DNA of 32,718 bases. Origin: Treponema sp. (GTDB lineage Bacteria; Spirochaetota; Spirochaetia; Treponematales; Breznakiellaceae). Location: contig QKCO01000082.1 of assembly GCA_003245635.1 (NCBI GenBank), positions 1-32,718 of the forward strand, read 5' to 3'. A program made the translations under genes and the position numbers. A model generated the notes under the pieces. It did no database searches. It had not been told where the DNA came from and was given only the letters and a program-made list of their open reading frames with translations. Shown piece by piece: positions 26,443 to 32,281 of the stretch (position 1 is its first letter; each line of letters begins with the position of its first letter).

Positions 26443-27141
26443 ATGATCGTCGCAGGCATACCGGTCACCGTCGCGCGCAAAGCGGTGCGCGGATTCAGGA
26501 TCTCGGTGCACCCGCCCGAGGGGGAAGTCCGCGTTTCCGCGCCGCTTTCCATGGGAGCGGAAGCGATCGGGGCGGCCGTCGGCGAACGGCTCGATTGGAT
26601 ACGCAAGCATCGCGAACGATTCCGCGCGGCCCATCCCGCCATCTCCCGCTCGTTCGCGTCGGGCGATACCGTCTATTGGCTCGGCCGGCCCTATACGCTT
26701 GAGTTGTCGCAAGGGCCGGGACGAAACGGCATCCGGGAGACGGCGGAGGGGCGCCTCGAGATGCGCGCGAAAACCGGCTCGAGCTCCGCGGACCGCGAAG
26801 CGATCCTCTACGAATGGTACCGGGCCAAGCTCAAGGAACTGCTTCCGCCCCTCCTCTCGAAATGGGAAACGGCCCTTGGCGTCTCTGCGGCCGAATGGGG
26901 GCTCAAGCGGATGCGGACGCGCTGGGGCTCCTGCAACCCGTCGGCCAGGCGGGTCTGGCTCAGCCTGGAATTGGCGCCGAAGCCCCTGTCCTGCATCGAA
27001 TACGTCGTCGCCCACGAACTGGCGCACCTGATCGAACGCTCCCACGGGAAGCGATTCAAGGCGATCCTGGACCGCGCCCTGCCCGACTGGCGGGCGCGCC
27101 GCGCGCTGCTCAACGGAAGAGGTTCCGCCGATTCTATTTGA
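26443..27141 (+). CDS. YgjP-type zinc metallopeptidase (DUF45)
   Basis: Cytoplasmic protein of 232 aa of the YgjP-like family (PF01863). The zinc site is clear: HELAH gives His191, Glu192 and His195, and His201 in the following SHGKRF is the third ligand. Upstream are the family stretches MRTRWGSCNPSARRVWLSLEL and CIEYVVAHELAH. The N-terminal half is the usual beta-rich part (VRVSAPLSM, DTVYWLGRPYTL). A weak GGAAG lies about 10 nt before the chosen ATG. An alternative ATG at 26425 would overlap the small divergent gene. The 3' end overlaps the convergent ABC permease gene by 8 nt. The cellular substrate of the family is not established. Confidence 0.9.
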   Translation: MIVAGIPVTVARKAVRGFRISVHPPEGEVRVSAPLSMGAEAIGAAVGERLDWIRKHRERFRAAHPAISRSFASGDTVYWLGRPYTLELSQGPGRNGIRETAEGRLEMRAKTGSSSADREAILYEWYRAKLKELLPPLLSKWETALGVSAAEWGLKRMRTRWGSCNPSARRVWLSLELAPKPLSCIEYVVAHELAHLIERSHGKRFKAILDRALPDWRARRALLNGRGSADSI

Positions 27142-27982
27142 TCGCGCCCATCGTCATGCCCCTGATCACATACTTCTGCAGGAAAATGAAGGCGATCATG
27201 ATCGGGATGCTCGCGAGCATCGAAAAGGCCATCATCGTCGTCCAGTCCGTGACGAATTCGGAAAGCAAACTGTAGATAGCCATGGTAAGGACGCGCTTGT
27301 CCCACGACTCGACCAGGATCATCGCGAACAGGAATTCGTTCCAGGCGAGCAGGAAGGTATAGAGGCCGGTGCCGACCATGGCCGGGACGCTGAGCGGGAT
27401 GGTCACCCGCCGGATCGCACCGAGCCGGTTGCAGCCGTCGACCATGGCTGCTTCCTCCAGCTCGGTCGGCAGATCGCGGAAATAGTTGCGCAGCATCAGC
27501 ACGCAGAACGGCAGACAGAAGGACAGGTACACCAGGATCAATGCGATCAGCGAATCGTAGAGCTTGATGTTCACGATGACCATGAAGTACGGCAGAGACA
27601 ACAGCACCAGCGGAAAGGTCTGGGTCACCAGCAGGAACATCACCAGCAGCTTCTTGCCGCGGAAATTGAAGCGGGCCAATCCGTAGCCGGTCAGGCTGCC
27701 GAAGAACAGGGAAAGGAAGGTAACTACCAGGGATACCAGGTAACTGTTCCAGAAGCAGCGCAGGTACTGCAGGTTTCCGAGGACCCGCGCGAAGGACGCC
27801 AGGGAGAAATTGACGGACAGCCAGCGCGGGGGGATTTTCATCACTTCGACATTCGGACGCAGCGATACCGAAAGCATCCAAGCGATAGGGAGCAGGAGCA
27901 CCGCGCTCAGAACGACCAGCAATAGGTAGATCGGAAGCCGGTAGGCGAAAGTCGTGCGCTTCAGCGCTGATGCGTTAACCAT
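27134..27982 (-). CDS. Carbohydrate ABC transporter permease (MalG type)
   Basis: Inner-membrane permease of 282 aa with six helices. It carries the EAA loop ELEEAAMVDGCNRLGAIRRVTIPL that contacts the ATPase. The C-terminus VIRGMTMGAIK is typical of MalG-like subunits. Its ATG lies 1 nt after the MalF-type stop, and its ribosome site GGAGGGGG lies within the end of that gene, so the two are translationally coupled. No ATPase gene is nearby. A shared MsmX/UgpC-type ATPase from elsewhere is likely, as is common for this family. The last 8 bases overlap the convergent peptidase gene. Confidence 0.93.
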   Translation of the reverse strand: MVNASALKRTTFAYRLPIYLLLVVLSAVLLLPIAWMLSVSLRPNVEVMKIPPRWLSVNFSLASFARVLGNLQYLRCFWNSYLVSLVVTFLSLFFGSLTGYGLARFNFRGKKLLVMFLLVTQTFPLVLLSLPYFMVIVNIKLYDSLIALILVYLSFCLPFCVLMLRNYFRDLPTELEEAAMVDGCNRLGAIRRVTIPLSVPAMVGTGLYTFLLAWNEFLFAMILVESWDKRVLTMAIYSLLSEFVTDWTTMMAFSMLASIPIMIAFIFLQKYVIRGMTMGAIK

Positions 27983-27983
27983 T

Positions 27984-28889
27984 CTAGACCCCCTCCTTTC
28001 CTATGTGCCGAATGTACGAAAGGCTGAATACCAGGAGGAGCAGGAACATCATGACGGCTTCGGAGGACGAATAGCCCCATTTGAGGGAACGGAAGGCCTG
28101 GTTGTAGATATGCGTCGTCAGGACTTCCGACGAATTCATCGGACCGCCGCCGGTCATGGCGAAGACGATATCGAAATGGCGGAAAGTCCAGATCGTGTCG
28201 AGCAGGCCGACGGTGAGGATGGTCCCGCGGAGCCCGGGGATGGTAATGTGGAAAAAGCTTTTCACGCTGCCGGCGCCGTCGATGCGCGCGGCTTCGTAGA
28301 GTTCGTCAGGAATGCTCTGCAGCGCGGCCAGCAGCATGACCATGGTAAACGGGAAGCCGCGCCATACATTCACCGCGGTTACTGAAAAGAGAGCGAGCGA
28401 CGGATTGCCCAGCCAGTTGACGTTGTTCGCGCCGACAGCGAGGAGACCGATGCCCGAGAGCAATCCGTTGAGCATGCCGAACGGGTTGTAGATGAGCGTC
28501 CAGATCATCGCGGCCACGGTCGGCGCTATCAGCCAGGGTATGATCAGAAGACCCCGAAACAGACTGCGTATCTGGGATTCGATCTGCTGATGCAGCAAGA
28601 GTGCGAGCGTCATGCCGATCAGGAAATGGAAGAGCACGCTGAAGAAGGTGAAGATGAAGGTCTGCAGCAGCGCCTTCCAGAAGATCGGATCCTTTAAGAG
28701 GGCGGCGTAATTCAGCAGGCCGACGAATTCCCGGCCGAACGCGTTTCCCTCGAAGAAGCTCAGGATGAACACCTGCAGCAGCGGATACACGAGCAGAGAC
28801 ACCAGAATCGCCGTCCCCGGAAGCACGAAGAAATACGGCTGCAGAGCCTTTAGCGCGGTTCTTTTCAAGCCGAAGCCGGTAGCGGGCAT
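27984..28889 (-). CDS. Carbohydrate ABC transporter permease (MalF type)
   Basis: Inner-membrane permease of 301 aa with six helices (first near residues 15-38). It has the EAA loop ELYEAARIDGAGSVKSFFHITIPGL, followed by RGTILTVGLLDTIWTFRHFDIVF and the GGGPMNSSEVLTTHIYNQAF region typical of MalF/UgpA subunits. The start is MPATGFGL, with GGAGGGAAAC upstream. It is the middle gene of an operon with the binding protein before it and the MalG-type permease after it. The transported sugar cannot be deduced. Confidence 0.93.
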   Translation of the reverse strand: MPATGFGLKRTALKALQPYFFVLPGTAILVSLLVYPLLQVFILSFFEGNAFGREFVGLLNYAALLKDPIFWKALLQTFIFTFFSVLFHFLIGMTLALLLHQQIESQIRSLFRGLLIIPWLIAPTVAAMIWTLIYNPFGMLNGLLSGIGLLAVGANNVNWLGNPSLALFSVTAVNVWRGFPFTMVMLLAALQSIPDELYEAARIDGAGSVKSFFHITIPGLRGTILTVGLLDTIWTFRHFDIVFAMTGGGPMNSSEVLTTHIYNQAFRSLKWGYSSSEAVMMFLLLLVFSLSYIRHIGKEGV

Positions 28890-28949: not shown

Positions 28950-30239
28950 TTATTTCTTGAAGATCAGCTCGTTCCATTTCGCGGCGGCGTCGTCCAGGGC
29001 TTGCCGAGCGGTCTTGTTTCCGTTGATGAAGTTCTGAACTTCGATCGTCATCACGCGGTTCAACTCAACCTGGAAGGGCAGATGAGGAATGGCGTTCGCG
29101 TTCGGAAGGCCCATCTGCTCGATGAATACCTTCATGTACTTGTCGTTCTTGATGAATGGCTTGTCGGCGCTCACCTTGTTCGCGGGAAGATCTCCTGTCA
29201 TGCTCGCCCAGGTTTCGGACCCCGACGGACCGGTGAGGAATTTGACGAAGCGCCAGGCGGCGTCCAGACGCTTCGGATCGGCTGCGGTGCTCGACGGGAT
29301 GGAAACGAGCGAGCCCCGCACGACAGTGCCGTTGGTCGAGCCCCAGGGGAGCGTGGCGATCTCGAAATTGGCGTTCGGGTTGAGCTTCTTCTGGATGGCG
29401 ACACCCCAGGGTCCCTCGAACATCATCGCGATATTGCCGGCTCCGAAGTTGCCGCGCTTTTCCTTCTCGCCGTTCTGGAGCACGCCGGGAACGGTTACCT
29501 TATCCTTGTTGACTAGCTGCGCGTAGAACTCGAGTGCTTTGACGCCTTCGGGACTATTGAAGACCGGCCTGTTCTCCGCATCCACGATCTTCGCGCCGGC
29601 CTGGAACATGAGGGGATAGATGTCATAGGTCATGTTCGTGGGCGGCTCGGTGGCCAGCGTGGCCGTGAGAGCGTACTGATTCTTGTCGGGGCGGGTAACC
29701 ATTTTGGCGACGCTCTCGAGCTCGGCCCATGATTTCGGAGGAGCCGCGATGCCCTCGGCCTTGAAGATGTCCGCGTTGTAGAACAGGGCCACGCATCCGG
29801 CGTGGAGGGGCAACGTATAGCGCTTGCCTTTCACCTGCATCTTGAACGCGTCGAAGTATTGGTCGAGGAAGGCCGCCGGCTCCTTGGCCACGAGGGGATC
29901 AATGCTCGTGATAATCCCCGATTGGGCGAATTCTCCGACCCAATCCACCTGAACCAGCACGACGTCCGGGAGCATCTTCGCCTGCGCGAGCGTGACCACC
30001 TTGTCGTGGAAACCGTTAAACGGATGATCGACGAAGGTGAGCATGACGTCCGGGTTGTCTTTCTCGAAATCGGCCTTGAGCTTGTTCATGACCTCCTGGC
30101 CGACTTCGGCGGTCTTCCACTGCATCCATCGAACCTCGGTCTTCCCGGAGCCCGGCGATTCGGACTTTCCACCCGCCCAGAGGGAAGGAGCACACAGCGC
30201 GAGAACGAGAGCGATAGCCGCGATAGGAGTCCTTTTCAT
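28950..30239 (-). CDS. Sugar-binding protein of a carbohydrate ABC transporter (MalE/UgpB type)
   Basis: Extracytoplasmic solute-binding protein of 429 aa (SBP_bac_1). The signal peptide ends near SLWAGGKSES, a cleavage context common in spirochaetal binding proteins. Family features include WMQWKTAEVGQEVMNKLKADFE near the start, TFVDHPFNGFHDKVVTLAQA, the VQVDWVGEFAQSG region, LPLHAGCVALFYNADIF and GAGNIAMMFEGPWGV. AAGGAGG lies 6 nt before the ATG. It is the first gene of the minus-strand operon and is divergent from a NarL-type two-component system that may regulate it. The ligand is probably a sugar or polyol but is not defined. Confidence 0.94.
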   Translation of the reverse strand: MKRTPIAAIALVLALCAPSLWAGGKSESPGSGKTEVRWMQWKTAEVGQEVMNKLKADFEKDNPDVMLTFVDHPFNGFHDKVVTLAQAKMLPDVVLVQVDWVGEFAQSGIITSIDPLVAKEPAAFLDQYFDAFKMQVKGKRYTLPLHAGCVALFYNADIFKAEGIAAPPKSWAELESVAKMVTRPDKNQYALTATLATEPPTNMTYDIYPLMFQAGAKIVDAENRPVFNSPEGVKALEFYAQLVNKDKVTVPGVLQNGEKEKRGNFGAGNIAMMFEGPWGVAIQKKLNPNANFEIATLPWGSTNGTVVRGSLVSIPSSTAADPKRLDAAWRFVKFLTGPSGSETWASMTGDLPANKVSADKPFIKNDKYMKVFIEQMGLPNANAIPHLPFQVELNRVMTIEVQNFINGNKTARQALDDAAAKWNELIFKK

Positions 30240-30273: not shown

Positions 30274-30303
30274 AGTATACGGGCGGTATCCGGGACCGAA
30301 CAA
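30274..30303 (-). promoter_or_regulatory. Candidate promoter of the sugar ABC operon
   Basis: On the minus strand TTGTTC (30303-30298), an 18-bp spacer and TATACT (30279-30274) precede a leader of about 28 nt containing AAGGAGG. GCGGTA (30283-30288) lies in the spacer, where a bound regulator would block polymerase. Confidence 0.5.
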
Positions 30304-30327
30304 TCGTACGGCGGTAACATTCGTGTC

Positions 30328-30357
30328 CCGGGTACGGTACCGCGGTACCGTACCCGG
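30328..30357. promoter_or_regulatory. Perfect 30-bp palindrome between divergent operons, probable operator
   Basis: All 15 base pairs match around the centre 30342/30343. Internally it is built from GGTAC GGTAC (30331-30340), a CGCG centre and GTACC GTACC (30345-30354). GCGGTA recurs at 30283, 30311 and 30342, and TACGGCGGTA at 30307-30316 differs from the palindrome core TACCGCGGTA at one position. The region sits between the sugar-transport operon and the two-component genes. Confidence 0.8.
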
Positions 30358-30360
30358 CGT

Positions 30361-30389
30361 TTGAGGGGTACGAAAAACCATGCTATTCT
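30361..30389 (+). promoter_or_regulatory. Extended -10 promoter of the NarL-type two-component operon
   Basis: TTGAGG (30361-30366), a 17-bp spacer and TATTCT (30384-30389) preceded by TGC form a good extended -10 promoter. The ATG at 30396 is 6 nt further on, at the expected start point, with no ribosome site, so a leaderless message is likely. The palindrome ends 3 bp before the -35. Confidence 0.6.
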
Positions 30390-30395
30390 AATGGT

Positions 30396-31616
30396 ATGAC
30401 CGAAACGATGAGCGAGCGCGCCGGATTCATCCTCCTTGCGGTCGCAGGACATGCGGCGGCCGGAGCCGAAGTCGTTTTCGGCAGTGCAAAGATTGCCGCG
30501 CCCGTGCATTGGAACGAACAAGTCGCCGGACTGCTGCTGCTTTCGGCGGCTCTCTCAGCCTTCATCGCCTTCACGGAACGTAAGGAACTCAGGCCGATCC
30601 TGATCGCCGGCCAATTCTGCATCGCCCTCCTCGTCACCTACCCTGACAACGCTTCGCGCTCCGCGATGGCCGCGCTGACGACGTTCTGTGTCTTCGAGGA
30701 GCTGCTCTTCGAACCCCTCCCCCGGGCCGCCGTCGGCAGCGCCGCCATGCTCGCGCTGTCGCTTTTCGGCATCGACCCCGTTTCGATGTGGACCGTCCGC
30801 CGGCTTCCGGCTTCCGCGAACGGTCTGGCCCTGGCGGTATTCGCGCCCCTGTTCGGCGGGTCTCTCGGCTTCCTGCTGAGGAAAGCGAGGGAGAATCGGT
30901 TCGCGCAAAGGGAATTGATAACGAGGCTCGACCGGGCCGTAGGGAGACTGACCGACGCGAACGCGGGTTTCCAGGAATACGCCGCGGAAGCGGAGCGCTC
31001 GTCGGCGATGAACGAACGGAAGCGCATCGCCCGGGACATACACGATACGGTCGGCTACCATTTGATGAACGTCATCATGCTGATGGAGGCGGGCATCGAT
31101 ATCATTCCCAAGGGTGCCGAAAAGCTGAAGGACACGCTCGTCCAGACGCGGGACCAGGCGAAGGAAGGACTGCAGGAAACCCGACGCGCGCTCCGCGCGC
31201 TTCGGGCGATAGAGAACGGGAAACGAGACGGCATTCCGGCCGTCGAGGAACTCATCTCGGTGTTCGAACGCGTCACGGGAGTCGCCGTGAGCCGCGAATA
31301 CGGAAACCTCCCCACGAACCTTCCACAGGAAGAGTTCACGCTGATTTATCGAATGGTCCAGGAAGGACTCACCAACTCGTTCAAGCACGGCCGGGCGACC
31401 AGCATCGCGCTTCAATTCTGGGTGGACGACGAGCGGATCCTGCGGGTGCGGCTACGCGACAACGGGGTGGGAACGACCGAAACGGCCTCGCTGGGCATCG
31501 GCCTTACCGGCATGCGCGAACGGGTCGAACGGCTGCGGGGGACCCTGACCGCGGGCAACGCGCCGGACGGCTTCGAGCTTTCGGCCGCGGTACCTCTTTC
31601 AAGGAGCGTTCCATGA
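30396..31616 (+). CDS. NarL/LiaS-type sensor histidine kinase
   Basis: Membrane kinase of 406 aa. The N-terminal half has about five hydrophobic helices (residues 10-165) with short loops and no large periplasmic sensor, so it may sense membrane state or an intramembrane cue. HisKA_3 follows a coiled coil: ERKRIARDIHDTVGYHL with phospho-acceptor His216. The ATPase domain shows MVQEGLTNSFKHG (N box), LRDNGVG and LGIGLTGMRERVERLRG. It overlaps the response-regulator gene by 4 nt. The start at 30396 has no Shine-Dalgarno sequence. An out-of-frame ATG at 30391 closes after two codons. It is divergent from the sugar ABC operon, its most likely regulatory target. Confidence 0.9.
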   Translation: MTETMSERAGFILLAVAGHAAAGAEVVFGSAKIAAPVHWNEQVAGLLLLSAALSAFIAFTERKELRPILIAGQFCIALLVTYPDNASRSAMAALTTFCVFEELLFEPLPRAAVGSAAMLALSLFGIDPVSMWTVRRLPASANGLALAVFAPLFGGSLGFLLRKARENRFAQRELITRLDRAVGRLTDANAGFQEYAAEAERSSAMNERKRIARDIHDTVGYHLMNVIMLMEAGIDIIPKGAEKLKDTLVQTRDQAKEGLQETRRALRALRAIENGKRDGIPAVEELISVFERVTGVAVSREYGNLPTNLPQEEFTLIYRMVQEGLTNSFKHGRATSIALQFWVDDERILRVRLRDNGVGTTETASLGIGLTGMRERVERLRGTLTAGNAPDGFELSAAVPLSRSVP

Positions 31617-32281
31617 ACCGGATCAGAGTGATGCTCGCCGACGACCAGCGGCTATTCGTCGAAAGCCTCAAGTCCGTGCTGGAAACCCGCGCAGAGGACG
31701 TATCCGTCATCGGGATCGCGAAAGACGGCGCCGAAGCCGTAGAGATGGCGATCCGCCTGAATCCGGATATCGTGCTGATGGATTTGCGAATGCCGGCCAT
31801 GGACGGGGTCGAAGCCACCAAGCGCATCAAGGAACGCGCCCCCGGGATTCAGGTCGTGATGCTGACGACTTTCGACGACGACGAGTACGTCAGGGAAGCG
31901 CTCCTCTGCGGAGCGGTCGGATACCTGCTCAAGGACATTCCGCCGAGCGAAGTGATCGCGTCGCTGCGGGCAGTGAAAGAAGGGTCCGTCCTCATCTCCG
32001 CACCCATCGCCGCGAAGCTGATCGGCCGCATCGCGGAACTGGAAGACGCGCCCCATCATCCGGAACGAGCGGAGCGGGACCCGGGCAAGCTGCAGAGCCT
32101 GAGCGGCCGGGAGAGGGAAGTGCTCGACCTGCTCGCCGAAGGACTCGACAACCGAGAGATCGCCGACAGGCTGTTTCTCGCGGAACAGACCGTGAAGAAC
32201 CTGGTGAGCATGATCTACTCGAAGATCGGCACGCACAACAGGATCTCCGCTATGAAGATCGCCTCGGGCGAGGACTCATGA
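31613..32281 (+). CDS. NarL/LuxR-type response regulator
   Basis: Protein of 222 aa. The receiver domain (1-120) has acidic pair ADD, phospho-acceptor Asp57 in LMDLRMP, Thr in LTTFDDD and Lys in LLKDIPP. The C-terminal LuxR helix-turn-helix is LSGREREVLDLLAEGLDNREIADRLFLAEQTVKN. AAGGAG lies 6 nt before the ATG, which overlaps the kinase stop (ATGA). Members of this class bind as dimers to inverted repeats, so the repeats at 30278-30357 are candidate targets. Confidence 0.94.
   Translation: MNRIRVMLADDQRLFVESLKSVLETRAEDVSVIGIAKDGAEAVEMAIRLNPDIVLMDLRMPAMDGVEATKRIKERAPGIQVVMLTTFDDDEYVREALLCGAVGYLLKDIPPSEVIASLRAVKEGSVLISAPIAAKLIGRIAELEDAPHHPERAERDPGKLQSLSGREREVLDLLAEGLDNREIADRLFLAEQTVKNLVSMIYSKIGTHNRISAMKIASGEDS

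Follow-up and report, generated by a model that had tools for sequence, protein, structure and literature searches.

A 30-bp palindrome between a sugar ABC operon and a NarL-type two-component system in Treponema is a candidate operator with counterparts in other spirochaetes

The response regulator and its closest described relatives

DosR/DevR of Mycobacterium, the regulator of a dormancy regulon, has the half-site GGGAC, NarL and NarP sites are pairs of TACYYMT heptamers, and MacR binds a GTAC-containing palindrome, TGAGTACNNGTACTCA, that was not confirmed in the open-access literature searched. DosR/DevR and OsdR of Streptomyces are NarL-family response regulators with a GerE domain, as is the response regulator (RR) analysed here. 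DosR contacts bases through Lys179, Lys182 and Asn183 (PMC4082495), and the OsdR operator, AGGGCCGATCGGCCCT, is a palindrome with two 5-bp arms 4 bp apart (PMC5069765).

We analysed a 32,718-nt stretch of DNA from Treponema sp., hereafter the window, in which a palindrome separates a divergent sugar ABC operon from a gene pair encoding a HisKA_3 kinase and the NarL-type RR (Table 1). The RR contains a receiver domain (PF00072, 95.9 bits) and a GerE helix-turn-helix (PF00196, 64.2 bits), the combination that marks NarL/LuxR-type regulators, and its matches among solved structures were VraR, DosR/DevR, DesR and NarL. Against the NarL NCBIfam profile the RR scored 132, below the cut-off of 250, and the kinase matched the LiaS and MacS profiles weakly (73 and 28, with cut-offs of 450 and 300).

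The inner part of the palindrome, GGTAC-CGCG-GTACC, matches the 5-N4-5 operator geometry of OsdR and DosR, but the half-site in the window is GGTAC or GTTAC rather than GGGAC (DosR) or GGGCC (OsdR), the third base being T in place of G, and the site stands beside sugar uptake genes instead of belonging to a dormancy regulon. LiaSR/VraSR and MacRS differ in that the window site has N4 and not N2 spacing and lies beside a sugar ABC operon. NarL and NarP belong to the same superfamily as the RR, but heptamer pairs are not the unit found in the window, and the original prediction that the site matches neither the NarL nor the LiaR consensus is supported for the known consensus sequences.

The recognition helix of the RR reads LAEQTVKN where DosR has LAEKTVKN, so that the three contacting positions of DosR are occupied by Gln, Lys and Asn, two of the three being kept. 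Lys182 and Asn183 are retained as VKN or VRN. Gln occupies the Lys179 position in each of the 27 loci that have an N4 pair or phased GTACs, although these are a minority of the 74 loci with Gln there, and neither arrangement was found in 17 loci with His, Pro, Gly or Arg at this position or in two whose helix was unrecognised. A link between this Gln and the T in third position of the half-site is a suggestion only. The type of system is known; its target sequence and spirochaete distribution appear to be undescribed in the open-access literature searched, which yielded nothing on the exact sequence, on spirochaete NarL-type sugar regulators or on GTAC-type sites.

The palindrome and the divergent intergenic region

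A 30-bp palindrome built of two direct GGTAC copies per arm around CGCG had been predicted, and it proved exact. It is a real feature and not a product of chance: perfect 30-bp palindromes are expected 6e-5 times per window and 0.004 times per 2.5-Mb genome, 30 Markov-simulated versions of the window had longest palindromes of 12-22 bp, and every other palindrome in the window itself is at most 16 bp long. GTAC occurs seven times in the 156-bp divergent region, the top density among 156-bp stretches of the contig. The palindrome core was not found elsewhere in the assembly, where the nearest sites carry two mismatches.

Two further GCGGTA copies had been proposed on the ABC side, one of them in the promoter spacer. 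Both are present, but only the copy outside the spacer belongs to a full dimer-type site, the counterpart of the GTAC-N4-GTAAC that precedes the -35 in relatives.

Both promoters were read from the sequence by eye, and a sigma-70 consensus scanner called neither. The full site beside the ABC promoter, hereafter the proximal site, is 25 nt from the -10 with its centre at about -44.5, and the palindrome forms a distal site 31 bp upstream of it. Relative to the genes of the two-component system (TCS), the palindrome is centred at about -53.5 and abuts the -35 as predicted, ending 2 bp before a plausible TTTGAG; the full palindrome overlaps neither the -35 nor the -10. Opposite control of the two operons, also part of the original prediction, was not borne out by this layout: the ABC-side site occupies a class II activator position, and both -35 elements have the palindrome on their upstream side, which makes ABC operon activation combined with neutral or positive autoregulation the simpler reading. 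The kinase ATG (30396) lies about 7 nt past the inferred -10, with no Shine-Dalgarno sequence in 30384-30398, which suggests a leaderless mRNA; L026 and L172 look alike in this respect.

Table 1. Features of the sugar ABC operon, the divergent intergenic region and the TCS genes
Feature	Position	Strand	Details
Sugar ABC permease 2	27134-27982	-	BPD_transp_1, MalG-like
Sugar ABC permease 1	27984-28889	-	BPD_transp_1, MalF/UgpA-like
Extracellular sugar-binding protein (SBP)	28950-30239	-	SBP_bac_8/SBP_bac_1; Shine-Dalgarno AAGGAGGAT just upstream
ABC operon promoter (inferred)	30274-30303	-	-35 TTGTTC 30298-30303, 18-nt spacer, -10 TATACT 30274-30279
GCGGTA copy	30283-30288		inside ABC -35/-10 spacer; half-site at best
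Second dimer site (proximal site)	30305-30318	.	CGTAC-GGCG-GTAAC (+) = GTTAC-CGCC-GTACG (ABC strand)
GCGGTA copy	30311-30316		belongs to the full dimer-type site 30305-30318
Perfect 30-bp palindrome	30328-30357	.	CCGGGTACGGTACCGCGGTACCGTACCCGG; 100% inverted repeat, no loop
Direct GGTAC copies	30331-30335 and 30336-30340		mirrored at 30345-30349 and 30350-30354, around CGCG
Inner dimer site	30336-30349		GGTAC-CGCG-GTACC within the palindrome; one extra GGTAC/GTACC per arm outside
TCS promoter (inferred)	30360-30389	+	-35 TTTGAG 30360-30365, 18-nt spacer, -10 TATTCT 30384-30389
GGTAC copy	30367-30371		inside TCS -35/-10 spacer; half-site only
Sensor histidine kinase	30396-31616	+	HisKA_3 + HATPase_c
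NarL/LuxR-type RR	31613-32281	+	recognition helix LAEQTVKN

Similar sites in related spirochaetes and in the same genome

The closest RR homolog found in named genomes, at 56% identity, comes from a Spirochaetia MAG (L026) with the gene order HK-RR-SBP. The gap between its RR and SBP genes holds AGTACCGCGGTACC and GGTACCGTCGTAACTTGCG, and GTACCGCGGTAC, which is part of the palindrome, was found there as well. Like sites were present in other spirochaete loci, namely GGTACTATAGTACC and AGTACTATAGTAACTTCCG in L072, GTTACTCCCGTAAC in L124 and AGTACGCCCGTAAC in L129. A near-identical composite, GGTACCATTACGGTACCTCGGTACCTGTACACC and GGTACCATTTCGGTACCCGGGTACCTGTACGCC, occurs at two promoters of one locus in L137, and the palindrome looks like a symmetric form of this type of composite, fitting the divergent layout.

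In a first set of 24 spirochaete regions downstream of RR genes, TAC-N4-GTA occurred 8 times versus 0.69 times in shuffled sequence (maximum 3), and GTAC 43 times versus 13. Across 72 non-spirochaete homolog loci from Chloroflexi, cyanobacteria, actinobacteria and Firmicutes, TAC-N4-GTA stood at 2 versus 2.4 and GTAC was not enriched either. With the motif set by the first loci, additional ones drawn from 294 genomes of the order were analysed. In this broader sample, 24 tandem RR-ABC loci contained TAC-N4-GTA 10 times versus 0.55 in shuffled sequence (maximum 4) and GTAC 46 times versus 11 (maximum 23), counts that are not fully independent because same-genus relatives are included and two loci, L198 and L201, entered through a blind pattern. 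That 14-letter pattern, GTACN4GTAACTTNCG, gave 16 matches in the 294 genomes, 5 of which immediately precede ABC genes, with a total no higher than that of the reversed control, so that only the gene context of the matches is informative. The spacer profile of the tandem-ABC loci peaks at 4 and 8 with little elsewhere; convergent loci held one TAC-N4-GTA and four GTACs, and loci without a recognised ABC operon gave an intermediate signal (3 and 28). Before the ABC operon in head-to-tail spirochaete loci the site takes the form GTAC-N4-GTA(A/C)C. The comparison with relatives that had been suggested earlier was therefore positive; lack of conservation, which had been named as a possible counter-argument, did not occur, and the recurrence of like sites in related spirochaete genomes points to an ordinary type of switch.

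At two-site loci (L026, L072, L198, L201, L210, L212 and L219), the best -10 usually follows 23-24 nt after the end of the downstream site, a distance that is suggestive only, since this -10 is the best match in a 14-nt search range. The site's centre near -42.5 is a class II activator position, and the gaps between paired sites in relatives are 23-25, 31-35 or 65 bp. The window fits this arrangement, with 25 nt to the -10 and 31 bp between its two sites, although its proximal site is thereby slightly further from the -10 than 23-24 nt and has the reverse orientation.

In place of the N4 form, some relatives have GTACs repeated at intervals of about 12 bp, and others have none. In one group, L181, L183, L184, L189 and L028, the N4 pair downstream of the RR gene gives way to three such repeats ahead of the SBP gene (e.g. 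GGTACCAAAATTAGTACCAAAATCGGTACTTT). In L210, L212 and L219 a conserved AGTAC(C/T)TGGGTACT palindrome precedes the kinase gene, almost touching its putative -10, a position that would suggest autorepression in these loci. Sister regulators carry EHTVRN helices (L173-L177, L186, L195) or EPTVRN helices (L179, L180, L187, L191, L194), and mostly no ABC neighbour was seen in either group.

Within the genome of the window, TAC-N4-GTA occurs at 2 of 12 SBP_bac_8 loci, the window and a paralogous locus on contig 20. Each of the two site-bearing loci adjoins a HisKA_3 kinase gene; the assembly, which is 82% complete, encodes no others, and further HisKA_3 kinases or sites may be missing from it. In the genome-wide search suggested earlier, GKTACN4GTAMC had 4 matches versus 7 in the control. 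Since this pattern is not enriched genome-wide, we do not claim a wider regulon, and the result fits a local regulator.

Candidate operators of the RR and alternative explanations

We estimate a probability of about 0.75 that the palindrome and the proximal site are operators of the RR, through which it would activate the sugar ABC operon and, probably, the TCS genes as well. Comparative evidence makes this RR the best candidate for a site common to both operons, in line with the original prediction. We infer that phosphorylated RR would bind as dimers to 14-bp (G/T)TAC-N4-GTA(A/C) sites. At the ABC operon, the proximal site would be occupied just upstream of a poor -35, and the palindrome, about three helical turns further out, would take additional dimers, such that proximal and distal dimers together could recruit RNA polymerase by class II activation. 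A palindrome directly upstream of the TCS -35 would most simply give positive autoregulation, and the kinase may signal the availability of the sugar carried by the adjacent transporter. The target sequence is now tied to spirochaete kinase-regulator pairs beside sugar ABC transporters; a concrete candidate site is defined, and local regulons of such pairs should be predictable from sequence.

An unlinked regulator, for example of the LacI or GntR family, might instead repress the sugar operon via the palindrome, with the TCS a mere neighbour. Like this site, LacI operators are palindromic with CG at the centre, and eight LacI-type proteins are encoded on other contigs of the genome; none of the eight genes is on the contig of the window, however, and the site follows RR-ABC linkage across spirochaetes, where it stands before both ABC and kinase genes. 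It is also missing from ten other SBP loci of the same genome, and the proximal site is upstream of the -35 and not over the promoter, which argues against LacI- or GntR-type repression. We consider this explanation improbable, and we give very little credence to the palindrome being an RNA hairpin, a terminator or what is left of a mobile element instead of a protein-binding site. Transcribed, it would fold with an energy of -25.8 kcal/mol, but it lacks a T-run, a terminator scan of the region called none, and an Rfam search of the region returned nothing above threshold and only a sub-threshold microRNA match. Both inferred start sites are outside the palindrome, which would place it in neither mRNA, and its uniqueness in the genome argues against a repeat element.

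The opposite control of the original prediction would make the RR an activator of the ABC operon and a repressor of its own TCS genes. The palindrome adjoins the TCS -35, a further GGTAC lies within the -35/-10 spacer, and in L210, L212 and L219 a full site comes close to the kinase gene's putative -10; in the window, however, the full site is off the -35 and -10 and the spacer copy is a half-site only, and such a two-way switch seems rather unlikely here. The four GTAC half-sites of the palindrome are 5, 8 and 5 bp apart, a spacing that would accommodate the inner N4 dimer or the outer arrangement but not both. We see a small chance that this makes the palindrome a compound operator with overlapping registers, in which dimer versus tetramer occupancy could split output between the divergent promoters; in this reading, the target sequence would mark out a branch of NarL-type sugar-transport regulators that is specific to spirochaetes and undescribed.

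The second HisKA_3/NarL pair of the genome (L123, G000:C20:24250-25260) likewise precedes a sugar ABC operon that has GGTACGCCGGTACT, and cross-talk between its TCS and that of the window is possible.
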